64,000 nt of DNA from Thermococcus pacificus (GTDB lineage Archaea; Methanobacteriota_B; Thermococci; Thermococcales; Thermococcaceae). This document shows, piece after piece, positions 33,466 to 39,741 of the stretch. The stretch lies in NCBI RefSeq assembly GCF_002214485.1, contig NZ_CP015102.1, positions 1,612,001 to 1,676,000 of the forward strand. The letters run 5' to 3'. The position numbers and the translations under genes were made by a program. Each line of letters starts with the position of its first letter. Position 1 is the stretch's first letter. The notes under the pieces were generated by a model. That model saw nothing but the letters and a program-made list of their open reading frames with translations, was not told the DNA's origin and made no database searches.

Positions 33466-35478
33466 ATGCAGGGCAAAAAGCTTCTGGCCCTTTTAATGGC
33501 CCTTCTCGCAGTAGTAGCAATACCAGTCAGCACAGTTTCAGCAGCTTCAGCATCTCCAGCACCCGGTGAAATCCTCCTCCAGCCGCTGCCCGGTGCCCCC
33601 GTGATAGGAAGTCCAGGAGAAATTGTTGAAATACGTCCCGCCGAGGGGGTCTCGATACAGTCACTCCAGATAGTTTCGATACTCCACGGTCCCTACGATC
33701 TGGAGATCATTGGAACGGATAACGGTGTCCTGAAGGCCAAGATACCAGAGGACGCCGTTCCGGACGTTTACTTCCTCGTCGTCAAGAGCGACGAGGGCGA
33801 GGTAGCGATACCCAACGGCGTCTGGGTGGTGAAGGAGAACCCCAAGCTCCTCAGGATAGCCCACCTCAGCGACATCCACGTCACCAGCGGTGCTAAGATA
33901 GGCTTCGTCTGTGGGGACTACTTCCAGAAGAGCCTCCCGGAGATACTGAAGTACTGCGACCACCCGTACGCGATGCACAGCTACACCGCCCACGTGAGTG
34001 CCATGACCTACTACGCCATGACCGGCCTCCAGGGCCAGGGCGTCGTCAACGTGATAGTCAGCACCGGTGACGACGTGGACACCAGTGGCGACCAGGAAGG
34101 CTACAGGATGTTTGATCACGGCATTCTCATGGGGACTGCCGCAGGAACGCCCTTCATAAGCATAAAGGGCAACCACGACCATCCACCGACCTACTACACC
34201 AAGTACGTGAACCCCAGGTATTTCTACGAGGTCATCGGTGACTTCCTCATAATCGGCCTCGACAGCCGCGGCGAGGAGAGGCACCCGGAGATGGAGCAGC
34301 TCCAGTGGATGGAGGACGTCCTCAAGGCCCACCCGAACAAGACCGTCATCGTCCTCGTCCACCACCCGTTCTGGTACAGCACCCCCGATGGGAAGTGGGG
34401 CGGAACCATAAAGGGCTACACCGCCTTTGATGACGGCGACTGGAGTGCCCTCACCAAGTTCGTCAGCTGGGACTGGGAGGGAAGGAACGGCGAGTACGAC
34501 GACATAGCGAGGTACTTCCTCCAGATGGTTGAGAAGTACAACATCAGGCTCGTCCTTGCAGGACACATTCACAAGGACAAGCCGGTTCTATACGTTGACA
34601 AGAACGGTAACGAGCACTGGTTCTACACGGTAACTACCACCGGCGCCCCGGACAAGACCAGCAACCCGCCGAGCGAAACGGACAAGAAACTGGGCTACAC
34701 CGTGCCAAGCTGGTATGGCTCACAGGTCATCTACGTGTACTCCAACGGCACCGTTGAGTTCCCGCTCACCGGGGACGTTCTCCACGAGGGTATAAGCTCA
34801 CTGCCGATCCCGCAGAAGTTCATCGTTTACAGGCAGAATGGTGAAGACGGAACGGCCATCAAGTTCGTGAATGAACTTGATCAGACCGTCAGCGGGCCGC
34901 TTGTTCTCCAGATACCAGAGGGTGCCAAGATAGACCCGGACCACACCAACATAACCTACACCGTCCTCGGTGAGAGGGAAATAGGTGGGGCGTATTACGT
35001 TCTCATAAACGCCACGGTTCCGGAGGGGATAAGCCAGATAGCGGCGGTTAAGGAGACCGACACCAAGCCGCCGGACGTCAAGGTGGGCTACATCACACCG
35101 AGCAAGCCGAAGCCGGGAAGCCTCTTCAAGGTCTACATCTCCGCGAGCGACAACGTTGGAATAAGGGACATGAAGGTTCAGATAGTAAGCGACGGAAAGG
35201 TCCTCGCCGAGTATCCGGCGTTCTCAATGAAGCCGTCCACGGTCTCGGCGACCTACCTCACCACGGTTCCGGGCGTCAACGCCACAGAGTTCACAATCAA
35301 GGTCATAGCCACAGACTTCTACGACAACACCGCGGAGGCTACCTACGAGGTCGGCGGCACCACCACGACCACAACCGGTAGCTCCCAGAGCACGAGCCAG
35401 AGCTCGGAAAGCACCTGCGGCCCGGGAATACTCGTTGGCCTGGCTCTCCTCCCCGTTCTCCTCAAGAGGAGGGAGTGA
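33466..35478 (+). CDS. Secreted calcineurin-like metallophosphoesterase with CGP-CTERM tail
   Basis: Exported phosphoesterase of 670 aa. A signal peptide (1-28) and an N-terminal beta domain precede the metallophosphoesterase core: IAHLSDIHVTSG (about 131), STGDDVDTSGD (about 205), SIKGNHDHPP (about 233), VLVHHPFW and LAGHIHKDKP (about 366), covering all metal ligands. Two beta-sandwich regions follow (KPPDVKVGYITPSKPKPGS and on), then a serine/threonine linker, STCGPGIL, a hydrophobic segment and KRRE. It would act at the cell surface, perhaps on nucleotides or phosphoesters; the substrate is not known. The start follows GGTGATACC, with TATA AACTTATAACC upstream. Confidence 0.82.
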   Translation: MQGKKLLALLMALLAVVAIPVSTVSAASASPAPGEILLQPLPGAPVIGSPGEIVEIRPAEGVSIQSLQIVSILHGPYDLEIIGTDNGVLKAKIPEDAVPDVYFLVVKSDEGEVAIPNGVWVVKENPKLLRIAHLSDIHVTSGAKIGFVCGDYFQKSLPEILKYCDHPYAMHSYTAHVSAMTYYAMTGLQGQGVVNVIVSTGDDVDTSGDQEGYRMFDHGILMGTAAGTPFISIKGNHDHPPTYYTKYVNPRYFYEVIGDFLIIGLDSRGEERHPEMEQLQWMEDVLKAHPNKTVIVLVHHPFWYSTPDGKWGGTIKGYTAFDDGDWSALTKFVSWDWEGRNGEYDDIARYFLQMVEKYNIRLVLAGHIHKDKPVLYVDKNGNEHWFYTVTTTGAPDKTSNPPSETDKKLGYTVPSWYGSQVIYVYSNGTVEFPLTGDVLHEGISSLPIPQKFIVYRQNGEDGTAIKFVNELDQTVSGPLVLQIPEGAKIDPDHTNITYTVLGEREIGGAYYVLINATVPEGISQIAAVKETDTKPPDVKVGYITPSKPKPGSLFKVYISASDNVGIRDMKVQIVSDGKVLAEYPAFSMKPSTVSATYLTTVPGVNATEFTIKVIATDFYDNTAEATYEVGGTTTTTTGSSQSTSQSSESTCGPGILVGLALLPVLLKRRE

Positions 35479-35572
35479 CCCTTTTCTTCCATTTTATACT
35501 CCGTACGGCTAACCTCACGTTAGTTTGGGGAGGGAAGAGTTTTTAAACCGTCCCCATAAGCCCACCCTGGTG

Positions 35573-36190
35573 ATGAAGGTGAAGTTCAAAGGCAAAGCCT
35601 TCGGCAGTATGGTGAGGATGGAGTTTGACATCCTCACGCTGAGCGAGCTTAAAATAGACGACCTGCGAGACTTTGATGTTGATTCCATCAGGATAGAGCT
35701 CAAGCCGACTTCTTCAGGTATAAAGGTCATCGGGATATGGGAAGGCACCGTTGAGAATGCCGGTGAGGGTATAAAGAAGGCCCTACTCGAGAGCTACAGG
35801 CTCCGCGAGAGGGTTCTCAACAGGATAAAGAGCAAGACCGAGGCGATAAGGGGCACCATGCAGCAGCTCGGCTTTAAGGAAGAGGTGGAAGGCTACGGAA
35901 GTGTCCTCCGCTTCATCAAGAAGGTCGGCCCGTACAGCATCGTTGTGGTCGCCTCAACGACAGACGACATCGTCCGCGTAGAGGTCTACGGCAACGACAA
36001 GAAGATAATCAGTCCCGAGCTGGAGAGCATCTTCGAGGACGTTGAGGTTGAAGAGCTGGAGGTCTACGACTTCGAGGATGGCAAGGAGGAGAGGCTCGTC
36101 ATCAACCTTGAGATACCCAAGAACGAAGAGAAGCCGGAAAAGAAGATAGTGGAAGCCATAAGGATGATAGAGAGCATGCTTATGGCCTAG
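35573..36190 (+). CDS. Conserved hypothetical protein
   Basis: Protein of 205 aa, not recognised. The N-terminal half is beta-rich (MKVKFKGKAFGSMVRMEFDI; IRIELKPTSSGIKVIGIWEG). A basic helix follows (ESYRLRERVLNRIKSKTEAI), then a second beta-rich region that ends in acidic stretches (EDVEVEELEVYDFED) and a C-terminal helix. The ATG at 35573 lies about 30 bases after TTTTTAAACC, so the leader is very short; GGTG abuts the start. The frame is open 16 codons further up without support. It is convergent with the Mrr-like gene. Confidence 0.55.
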   Translation: MKVKFKGKAFGSMVRMEFDILTLSELKIDDLRDFDVDSIRIELKPTSSGIKVIGIWEGTVENAGEGIKKALLESYRLRERVLNRIKSKTEAIRGTMQQLGFKEEVEGYGSVLRFIKKVGPYSIVVVASTTDDIVRVEVYGNDKKIISPELESIFEDVEVEELEVYDFEDGKEERLVINLEIPKNEEKPEKKIVEAIRMIESMLMA

Positions 36191-36212: not shown

Positions 36213-38360
36213 TCATTTGTACTTGTTCTCGAGCTGGAACTGCTTCAGCTTCGCCGTCAGTCCCTTGGTCGGAGCCACGTCCTCACTTATAACTTTCCCG
36301 CTTTTGAGGTCTATCCTCGCGTAGTACAGGTTCTCTTTCCCCTCGACCTTTATGTGGACGTAGCCCTTCTCCTCGTAGAGGGTCATGCGCTCCACAACGG
36401 GGTTCTCCTCGCCATGCTTCTCCTTCACGTGGGCGAGATAGGCCTCCTTTATAGCCATCTCCGTGAAGCGGACGTCCTTCTCTACGACCTCGCCGGTGGC
36501 CCTGTGAAGGACGAGCTTTCCCGTCTTGGTCCTGCCCGCGAACTCAACCTCCCAGTTCTCGTTGAGGGCCAGGTTCTTGACTACTGCCTCTTCATCAACC
36601 TCCTTTGCGGCCCGCTCGGCCAGCTCTTCCGCCACCTCCCTCCTGAGAACACGGTCGGCCTCCTCGATTAGTTTCCCGTCCCTGCTGACCTTAATTGTGA
36701 CGACGTGTCTGTCGTTCTCTGCCTTAAGGACGTACTCCGTCTCACCGCTCTCCGCGACGGTCACCTCAAAGCCCGCGTACTTCTGGGAAGCCAGCTCCCT
36801 GGCCCTCTCAGGTGTTACCTCTGCCACGTAGTCCAGGATGTCCCCGGTCTGGCCATCCACCTTGACAGCGGCCTTTCCATCGCTGCTTTCCATGTTAAGC
36901 TCAAGGTACTTGTGTTCCAGAACGCGGTAGGATCTAAGTTCCAGATTCCTGAGCGGGAAGTTCTCCTCTATCACCTTCCTAGCGTTCCCAAAGGCAGTCT
37001 CCGGTGAGGGAATCCTCCTAGCTTCCCTGTGCTTCCCGCTCGTCAGGTCGACCTGCATCACTGCTATCCCTTCGGGAATGAGTATGTCTGCCACGGCCAC
37101 CTTCTTGCCCTTCTCAAGGTTGACTACTTGTCCCTCCGGGTAGGCACTCATGAGGAGCTCGTCGAGGGCCTCATCGCTCATGAGGGCCTCCATGCCGAGG
37201 AGCTTCCCGGTGTACTCGTTGAAGGAGAGCTCAAAGGAGAACCTTTCGGTCTTTCCGGACACCTTGACCTTTCCTCCGGCACGCTTGAGGGAATAATCCA
37301 CCACAGCCTCGCCCGTTTGAGCCTCCACAGCAGCGGCGGTTCTCTCGACGAAGTACTCATCGGGAAGTGGACTTATCTCGAACCTAACTTCATCGTTCTC
37401 AAGGTCAACTTCCGCCCGGGCAGTGTTTTCCCCGACCCTGAGGCTCAACTCAGCCTTTTTGGGGATGTACACCTTCTTCCTCTCGTGTATTTTTATCCTC
37501 CCCTCAGGAACGCCGAGCTCCTTCGAGGCGGTTTCCTTGAGTATGAAAACCGCCTCGCTTGGGCTTATTGGAACGTCGATTTCCCTCTCCGTGGCATGGA
37601 TCACGGAACCATCGTTGAGGAGGGCCTTCGTTATCGGCACGCTCAGAACCTTGTCCTGGATCGCCCGAAGAACCATCCTCTCCTTGGAGAAGACGACCGC
37701 CTTGTCCTTCTCCTCAGTCCCATCGTCCCTCTCAACGGACCAGGAGAAAATGTAAGCACTGGAGAGAAGGACGGAAACGGAATCGAGCTTCACCTCGTCG
37801 GACTTTATCGGGTACTTGGATACCGCCGCAGAGGCCACTCTCTTGAGAACCGCCTCTGGGGAGAACTCATGGAGCAGCGGTGCGTCGAGCTCGAACTCCT
37901 TTAGGGAGCTTTCCTCTTTCTCCTCATCAGCCTTAGACTCAAGGGCCTCGATTAGATCCTCAGGGGGCTCGAGGGAGTAGTTGTTGAAGAGCGACGCCAG
38001 CTTCTCGCCGTCCCACGGCACTATCCTGCCGCGGTGCTCCCTGGATATGAGAACCTTGGCGTCTTTCGTGAAGCCGACGGGGGAGATTATTATCCCCTTG
38101 TCTGCCTTGTACTTATCCACGAGATCCGCAAAAACGTTGACATCCTTCGACGAGGCAAGACCCTTGGAGTGGAGAGCCAGAACCACCTTCTCGGTTCCAG
38201 CTATCGGGTCGTCCCGTATTGCAACGACATCTATGCCCCACTCCTTTTTGCCTGAAACTCGCTCGTACTCCCGGAAGCCCATTCTCTTCAGTAACTCAAT
38301 GACGTTCTCAATCAGAGTCTCGTCCGAGGCCAGTCTTATTAAAGCCGGTGTCCACTGCAT
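36213..38360 (-). CDS. Fusion of an Mrr-like nuclease domain with a long PepSY-like repeat region
   Basis: Protein of 715 aa. The N-terminus (about 8-140) is a restriction-endonuclease-like Mrr domain: a lead helix LIENVIELLKRMGFREYERV, GIDVVAIRDD with the metal-binding Asp, VVLALHSKGL with the catalytic Lys, and KGIIISPVGFTKDA. The usual Gln/Glu two residues before that Lys is His. The remaining 550 residues hold at least four alpha/beta units with sequences such as GKAAVKVDGQTGDILDYVAE and YYARIDLKSGKVISEDVAPT, like PepSY repeats. No membrane helix is seen. ATG 38360 follows GGGTGAGACTG. The nuclease call is moderate and the role unknown. Confidence 0.55.
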   Translation of the reverse strand: MQWTPALIRLASDETLIENVIELLKRMGFREYERVSGKKEWGIDVVAIRDDPIAGTEKVVLALHSKGLASSKDVNVFADLVDKYKADKGIIISPVGFTKDAKVLISREHRGRIVPWDGEKLASLFNNYSLEPPEDLIEALESKADEEKEESSLKEFELDAPLLHEFSPEAVLKRVASAAVSKYPIKSDEVKLDSVSVLLSSAYIFSWSVERDDGTEEKDKAVVFSKERMVLRAIQDKVLSVPITKALLNDGSVIHATEREIDVPISPSEAVFILKETASKELGVPEGRIKIHERKKVYIPKKAELSLRVGENTARAEVDLENDEVRFEISPLPDEYFVERTAAAVEAQTGEAVVDYSLKRAGGKVKVSGKTERFSFELSFNEYTGKLLGMEALMSDEALDELLMSAYPEGQVVNLEKGKKVAVADILIPEGIAVMQVDLTSGKHREARRIPSPETAFGNARKVIEENFPLRNLELRSYRVLEHKYLELNMESSDGKAAVKVDGQTGDILDYVAEVTPERARELASQKYAGFEVTVAESGETEYVLKAENDRHVVTIKVSRDGKLIEEADRVLRREVAEELAERAAKEVDEEAVVKNLALNENWEVEFAGRTKTGKLVLHRATGEVVEKDVRFTEMAIKEAYLAHVKEKHGEENPVVERMTLYEEKGYVHIKVEGKENLYYARIDLKSGKVISEDVAPTKGLTAKLKQFQLENKYK

Positions 38361-38438
38361 CAGTCTCACCCATGGAAGTGAAATCCCCTCAAAGTTTCTT
38401 CGCCCCCATTTTATAAATCTCTTTCCCCTCTGGCAACT

Positions 38439-38502: not shown

Positions 38503-39741
38503 ATGTTCAGGCTCACCGACTTCAACTTTCACAACAAAACCGTGTTTCTGAGGGCCGACCTTAACTCCCCTGTTAAGGATGGAAGGATAATCAGCGACGC
38601 AAGGTTCAGGGCGGTTCTCCCGACGGTGAGCTACCTCCTCGAACACGGGGCGAAGGTCATCATCGGCACACACCAGAGCAAGCCCTACAAGGGGGACTAC
38701 ACGACCACCGAGGAGCACGCGGAGATTCTGAGCGAATTGCTCGGTCAGGATGTAGAATACGTCGAGGACATCTTCGGGAGGTACGCCCGCGAGAGGATCA
38801 GGGAGCTGAAGCCCGGTGAAGCTCTAATGCTGGAGAACCTCCGCTTTGCGGCCGAGGAGGTCAAATACAAACCGATTGAAGACTGCGAGAAGACGTTCTT
38901 CGTAAGGAAGCTTGCTCCGCTAATAGACTACGTTGTAAACGATGCCTTCGCCGCCGCCCACAGAAGCCAGCCCTCGCTTGTCGGTTTCGCCCGCTTAAAG
39001 CCGATGATAATGGGCTTCCTGATGGAGAAGGAAGTTGAAGCGCTGGCGAGGGCGTACGACACAGAGGAGCGGCCCCGCGCCTACGTCCTTGGAGGGGCGA
39101 AGGTTGATGATTCCCTCCGCGTTGCGGAGAACGTCCTGAGGAATGGAAGGGCGGATCTCATTCTCACCGGTGGCCTCGTTGGCCAAGTCTTCACGCTCGC
39201 CAAGGGCTTCAACCTCGGCGATGCGAACATCGAGTTTATGGAAAAGAAGGACCTCCTTGAGCTCGTGGATTGGGCCGAGAAAATCCTCGATGACTTCTAC
39301 CCCTACGTCAGAACACCGGTAGATTTCGCCGTGGACAAAGATGGGGAGCGCGTTGAGGTTGACCTCCTGAGCGGCGAGAAATGGCTCTTTGACCGCTACC
39401 CGATCCTCGACATAGGTTCCCGCACGGTCGAGAAGTACCGCGACATCCTCATGAAGGCAAAGGTAATAGTCGCCAACGGCCCGATGGGAGTCTTTGAGAG
39501 GGAGGAGTTCGCCCTTGGAACAGTGGGGGTCTTCAGGGCGATAGGAGAAAGCCCGGCTTTCAGCGTGGTCGGGGGAGGACATTCGATAGCGAGCATTTAC
39601 CAGCACAACATAACCGGGATAAGCCACGTCTCCACCGGTGGCGGGGCGATGCTGAGCTTCTTCGCCGGCGAAAAGCTACCGGTTATTGAGGCGTTCAGGA
39701 TAAGCTACGAACGGTTTAAGGATAAAATCAAGGGGGAGTAG
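38503..39741 (+). CDS. pgk: Phosphoglycerate kinase
   Basis: Enzyme of 412 aa that interconverts 1,3-bisphosphoglycerate and 3-phosphoglycerate with ADP/ATP. N-terminal substrate-site motifs are VFLRADLNSPVKDGRI and VIIGTHQSKPY; the middle has LMLENLRFAAEE, NDAFAAAHRSQPSLVG and YVLGGAKVDDS, and the nucleotide end has NGPMGVFE and STGGGAMLSFFAG. In Thermococcales it serves mainly gluconeogenesis because glycolysis bypasses this step with GAPOR/GAPN. The start follows GGTGATGGA. The glycolytic motif just upstream of the TATA box predicts activation on peptides or pyruvate. Confidence 0.95.
   Translation: MFRLTDFNFHNKTVFLRADLNSPVKDGRIISDARFRAVLPTVSYLLEHGAKVIIGTHQSKPYKGDYTTTEEHAEILSELLGQDVEYVEDIFGRYARERIRELKPGEALMLENLRFAAEEVKYKPIEDCEKTFFVRKLAPLIDYVVNDAFAAAHRSQPSLVGFARLKPMIMGFLMEKEVEALARAYDTEERPRAYVLGGAKVDDSLRVAENVLRNGRADLILTGGLVGQVFTLAKGFNLGDANIEFMEKKDLLELVDWAEKILDDFYPYVRTPVDFAVDKDGERVEVDLLSGEKWLFDRYPILDIGSRTVEKYRDILMKAKVIVANGPMGVFEREEFALGTVGVFRAIGESPAFSVVGGGHSIASIYQHNITGISHVSTGGGAMLSFFAGEKLPVIEAFRISYERFKDKIKGE

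Follow-up and report, generated by a model that had tools for sequence, protein, structure and literature searches.

A degenerate Mrr-type nuclease-fold domain fused to an array of PepSY-type units in a Thermococcaceae protein that may act by binding

PepSY domains (PF03413) are mainly extracytoplasmic. In the closest described proteins, YpeB and the propeptides of M4 peptidases, they form tandem alpha-beta(4) units of about 60 residues, few to a chain, that lie outside the cell or in propeptides. The domain is best known for the regulation of peptidases (Yeats et al. 2004, as cited in PMC6393860), and a PepSY protein found in DPANN archaea has been predicted to inhibit proteases (PMC6393860). 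Type IV restriction enzymes of the Mrr type (Mrr_cat, PF04471) have a restriction-endonuclease fold with a catalytic D...(Q/E)xK site. MspJI and AspBHI, modification-dependent enzymes with an SRA-like domain that reads DNA, have the site D...QxK. The fold also occurs in proteins that do not cut. The jaw domain of RPB5 in RNA polymerases uses it for binding, and NA-iREase1 (PF22722), the NACHT-associated inactive restriction endonuclease domain, is described as inactive. Here we describe an archaeal protein that joins a degenerate Mrr-type nuclease-fold domain to a long PepSY array.

The window, a stretch of 64,000 nucleotides from the 1.79-Mb complete genome of Thermococcus pacificus, contains the gene at 36213-38360 on the minus strand, where the first-pass annotation had placed it, and all features of the gene given below are on that strand. 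The open reading frame encodes 715 amino acids plus the stop codon. We prefer the ATG at 38360 as the start because a Shine-Dalgarno sequence, GGTGAG (38365-38370), stands 4 bases ahead of it and a putative TATA-box-like element, TTTATAAAAT (about 38408-38417), lies farther upstream, between the gene and the divergent pgk. An in-frame TTG upstream would give a protein of 744 amino acids; that start was discarded, as the Shine-Dalgarno sequence fits the ATG. The phosphoglycerate kinase gene pgk (38503-39741, plus strand; Pfam PGK, 1.2e-112) flanks the site on one side. On the other side is a convergent, conserved core gene of 215 to 221 codons, depending on the start chosen (35525-36190, plus strand).

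The N-terminal domain (residues 1-130; 37971-38360) matches Mrr_cat over residues 18 to 124 with an E value of 1.8e-15 and 57.5 bits, against a curated cut-off of 21. The second Pfam match is to NA-iREase1 (E=6.6e-7), and this domain is likewise the second match in all 32 orthologues scanned, with a best E value of 8.2e-9. Residues 1 to 135 modelled alone gave a restriction-endonuclease fold at a pLDDT of 92.6, and the PDB folds matching this model include those of MspJI, AF1548 from Archaeoglobus, EndoMS, FokI, and RPB5. In Foldseek, the modification-dependent enzymes MspJI (E=8e-5) and AspBHI are among the nearest. The full-length model has a pLDDT of 89.4, and viral restriction endonucleases match it over about 125 residues at 2.1 to 2.4 A; its pTM of 0.51 leaves the relative placement of the domains uncertain. 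The first-pass annotation had read an Mrr pattern at the N terminus, with a histidine where a glutamine or glutamate is usual. Both parts of that reading hold, as does the fold on which it depended: the GID motif is residues 42 to 44, LHSKG is residues 63 to 67, and His64 occupies the place of the Mrr Gln/Glu.

With the Mrr type IV enzymes the domain shares the fold, the order of the core elements, the GxD motif, and the GxxxSxxGFTKDA region. It differs from them in having HxK, or in relatives KxG, HxD, KxE, and the like, instead of (Q/E)xK, in the PepSY array fused to it, and in that no Mrr N-terminal winged helix was seen ahead of it. The match to NA-iREase1 is weaker than that to Mrr_cat, and the NACHT ATPase is absent from the 715-residue protein. 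RPB5 is close in fold, but no sequence relation was shown and its partner domain differs. MspJI and AspBHI are the closest solved nuclease folds, but their SRA-like DNA-reading domain is absent here.

The C-terminal 550 or so residues consist of about eight alpha-beta(4) units of the PepSY type. In the model, two larger units spanning residues 168 to 329 precede six regular units, each a helix followed by four antiparallel strands, at residues 334-394, 396-451, 453-515, 517-572, 574-632, and 634-697, with a period of 55 to 65 residues. Laid out along the gene, unit 1, an enlarged alpha/beta unit placed in the array by the model only and showing no clear likeness in sequence to the other units, covers residues 163-266 (37563-37874). 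It is followed by unit 2 (residues 267-332; 37365-37562), unit 3 (333-394; 37179-37364), unit 4 (395-451; 37008-37178), unit 5 (452-515; 36816-37007), unit 6 (516-572; 36645-36815), unit 7 (573-632; 36465-36644), and unit 8 (633-700; 36261-36464). The chain ends in a highly conserved helix (residues 701-715; 36216-36260), residues 698 to 715 of relatives having 71% mean identity to the 715-residue protein. The repeat was also found independently of the model by profile self-comparison, in which residues 310 to 409 matched residues 429 to 530 with an E value of 2.4e-7. Units 2 to 4 were assigned from the model together with profile comparison. Profile matches between individual units were weak except for units 4 to 6, 5 to 7, and 3 to 7 and 8, so that the assignment of unit 1, and in part of unit 2, depends on the model. 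The likeness, highest between units 4 and 6 and among units 3, 5, and 7, suggests that the array may have grown by doublets of about 120 residues.

The first-pass annotation had described this part of the chain as PepSY-like repeats. The repeats are real by both model and self-comparison, but the PepSY name comes from the relatives, as the 715-residue protein searched alone gave no Pfam match to PepSY at an E value of 10 or below. Among orthologues, 28 of 32 matched PepSY, with the matches falling within units 5, 6, 7, and 8 of different members. The best was in unit 7 of L042 (7.8e-9), and further matches were in unit 6 of L078, in unit 8 of L034 and L038, and, weakly (E=0.007), in unit 5 of L056. 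The curated cut-off of 24 bits was exceeded in L042 (36.2 bits) and L078 (27.8 bits), though not in the 715-residue protein itself. Seven of nine paralogues also matched. Searches of PDB sequences with the protein and its profiles returned chance matches only, and a likeness to beta-propellers in a fold search with the full-length model (TM about 0.07) was set aside as an artefact of the repeated sheets. In contrast to YpeB and the M4 propeptides, the array is in a leaderless chain with a nuclease fold fused to it and no peptidase domain. No membrane segment or signal peptide was found in the 715 residues (maximum 19-residue hydropathy, 1.54), in keeping with the earlier remark that the chain lacks a membrane segment.

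Residue conservation was followed in 60 proteins, 51 orthologues and 9 paralogues, over the D...(E/Q/H)xK positions that the first-pass annotation had singled out. The equivalent of the catalytic aspartate, D44 (38229-38231), is Asp in 49 orthologues and Glu in 2, and is Asp in none of the paralogues. At position 64, within the H64-x-K66 stretch (38163-38171), 40 orthologues have His and 11 have Lys, the paralogues have Leu, Ala, or Val, and Gln, Glu, or Asp occurs in 0 of the 60. Lys66 is kept in 28 of 51 orthologues and is otherwise Gly, Arg, Asp, or Glu; it too is missing from every paralogue, so that all three catalytic positions are lost in 9 of 9. Canonical Mrr proteins of the same phylum found by the same search (L096, L097, and L098) keep GVD...QVK or QCK. 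On a maximum-likelihood tree the 15 catalytic residue states required 17 changes, with position 66 changing several times. D44-H64-x-K66 is invariant in all 20 sequences of the clade to which the 715-residue protein belongs, which is weak evidence because 78 of the 130 positions of the domain (60%) are invariant in that clade.

A beta-hairpin of the domain, RxDPxxGxEK (R49-K58; 38187-38216), does not share this drift. It has the pattern R49-x-D/N-P52-x-x-G55-x-E57, and its Arg, Pro, Gly, and Glu are each kept in at least 58 of the 60 proteins, in both paralogue groups. The N-terminal domain as a whole is the best conserved large domain, with 66% mean identity to the 715-residue protein compared with 48 to 61% for the array units. 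The gene is under purifying selection, with a dN/dS of about 0.1 in close pairs. Because the hairpin and the domain stay conserved while D44, H64, and K66 drift, the surface that selection preserves is a different one from the catalytic site. A group of paralogues (L043 to L051) with about 30 to 36% identity keeps the architecture, although Pfam no longer gives a match for its Mrr domain. The genes of this group lie next to one for an alpha/beta hydrolase and, in the majority of genomes, to a gene resembling that for adenylosuccinate synthetase.

The family occurs in 64 of 94 Thermococcaceae species (54 of 74 good genomes) and in five of the six genera, and it was absent from the other genera of the phylum that were sampled. 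A search of genome contigs with the single protein sequence gave no match, and one with the alignment gave 16 loci, all from Thermococcales, the named relatives among them being Thermococcus and other MAGs of that order. Because the collection-wide contig search was keyed on three peptide patterns only, distant relatives may exist outside the Thermococcaceae. The usual locus of the main group is between pgk and the 215- to 221-residue gene, or beside pgk. In 7 of 10 examined genomes lacking the gene, these two flanking genes are directly adjacent. Deletion scars were seen in two genomes: residues 618-651 and 697-715 remain in G059, and residues 1-28 are joined to 703-715 in G034, the latter with a weak E value but exactly in place. 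Broken copies were found in four others (G020, G028, G041, and G056). From the fixed site, the purifying selection, the scars, and the broken copies, we conclude that the gene is old at the pgk site and useful enough for selection to keep it, yet often dispensable. The 215- to 221-residue neighbour is present in 91 of 94 Thermococcaceae genomes, is about 80 to 93% identical within much of the genus, and matches no Pfam family above cut-off. Functional coupling between the two genes was discarded, given that the neighbour occurs in 91 genomes and the PepSY-fusion gene in 64.

We consider the protein to be probably, if far from surely, a Thermococcaceae-specific accessory protein that acts by binding rather than cutting. 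This reading is favoured because the catalytic positions drift or vanish while no other large part of the chain is as well conserved as the N-terminal domain. Inactive members of the fold are also known to serve in binding, and the RPB5 fold match and the NA-iREase1 matches in 32 of 32 orthologues agree with this. Of the two functions that the first-pass annotation had offered, an inactive fold used for binding is thus the better one. The protein would be cytosolic, judging by the absence of a signal. Its array may wrap or hold one or more client proteins, just as PepSY domains outside cells do with peptidases and wall hydrolases, and the nuclease-fold domain may contact DNA, RNA, or a protein partner through the RxDPxxGxE hairpin. 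The whole protein would then tether, mask, or regulate its client inside the cell. Against this stand the neighbours, which give no functional link, the flanking 215- to 221-residue gene being core and the PepSY-fusion gene not, and the 20-sequence clade, which keeps D44-H64-x-K66 without exception. Because that clade keeps the site intact, some room for activity is left. A module best known from the propeptides of secreted proteases and from regulators of wall enzymes is here part of a seemingly cytosolic archaeal protein, in an array that is unusually long and joined to a nuclease fold whose stepwise decay can be followed from species to species. With an intact D-HxK at one end and no site at all at the other, the family offers a natural series for asking when a nuclease fold turns into a binding domain. 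The name "restriction endonuclease" that the Pfam match suggests is probably wrong for these genes.

The alternative that survives best, though we think it rather unlikely, is that the protein serves one particular peptidase or other hydrolase inside the cell as its regulator, inhibitor, or chaperone, the PepSY units working as in protease propeptides and the nuclease fold serving only for dimerisation or solubility. Both the regulatory role for which PepSY is best known and the inhibition predicted for the DPANN protein fit this, as does an array that accounts for three quarters of the protein and ends in a highly conserved C terminus. However, the loci viewed showed no recognisable peptidase gene as a constant neighbour, and conservation is higher in the nuclease-fold domain than in the array, which does not suit a mere solubility tag.

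Somewhat less likely again is that the protein is a nuclease that cuts DNA with D44-H64-x-K66, perhaps as a defence enzyme of a type IV-like kind, with His in place of Gln/Glu and at least the 20-sequence clade active, while the array senses or restrains. The significant Mrr_cat match, the nearness of MspJI and AspBHI in fold, weak PADLOC matches of the protein to mREase_IV and PDC-S02, the invariant D, H, and K of the clade, and a patchy distribution with repeated loss are what such an enzyme might show. Yet the lysine is replaced in 23 of 51 orthologues despite purifying selection on the domain, and no acid or Gln stands at position 64 in any of the 60 proteins. The suggestion of a defence enzyme with a large sensor also gained little from the genomic neighbourhood. 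In the loci viewed, both in the window and in relatives, the genes around it have mainly housekeeping roles (pgk, ABC transporters, a metallophosphoesterase, and an HD-domain protein), and the chromosomal site is fixed in most lineages. PADLOC found no defence gene beside the gene, its only hits there being cross-matches on the ATPase of an ABC transporter and on a MeaB GTPase, and plasmids, phages, and viral contigs gave no match to the family. In a published survey of restriction systems in archaea, 44 Thermococcales genomes are reported to have no type IV enzymes (PMC10609329), so that the PepSY-fusion proteins do not figure among the type IV enzymes of that survey. A mixed reading, in which the proteins of the 20-sequence clade cut DNA through an altered D...HxK site and are restrained inside the cell by the array, while those of the sister clades have become pure binding proteins on the same scaffold, strikes us as improbable; if true, it would mean that an inhibitor fold of the propeptide type is used intracellularly to control a DNA-cutting enzyme. 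Export to the cell surface by a route without a recognisable signal would fit the usual extracytoplasmic setting of PepSY domains but is very improbable for a chain that has no signal peptide or membrane segment and opens directly with the nuclease-fold domain from an ATG backed by a Shine-Dalgarno sequence.

An Mrr-PepSY fusion is nowhere described in the open-access literature searched, and this silence is weak evidence of novelty. Nothing of use came up in the literature for the T. kodakarensis locus numbers near pgk. Several other genes were noted along the way. At 33466-35478 in the window, beside ABC transporter genes, is a calcineurin-like phosphoesterase predicted to be secreted and membrane anchored, with a leader and a C-terminal hydrophobic tail by eye. 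In an HTH_3 regulator (L060:4167-5120), the N-terminal part also looks, by eye, like a decayed restriction-endonuclease fold, and regulators of this type sit two genes from the PepSY-fusion gene in some genomes. Unrelated Thermococcaceae proteins of about 300 amino acids, zinc-ribbon-like and represented by L073:1249-2142, contain a weak PepSY-like stretch and have a similar paralogue adjacent.
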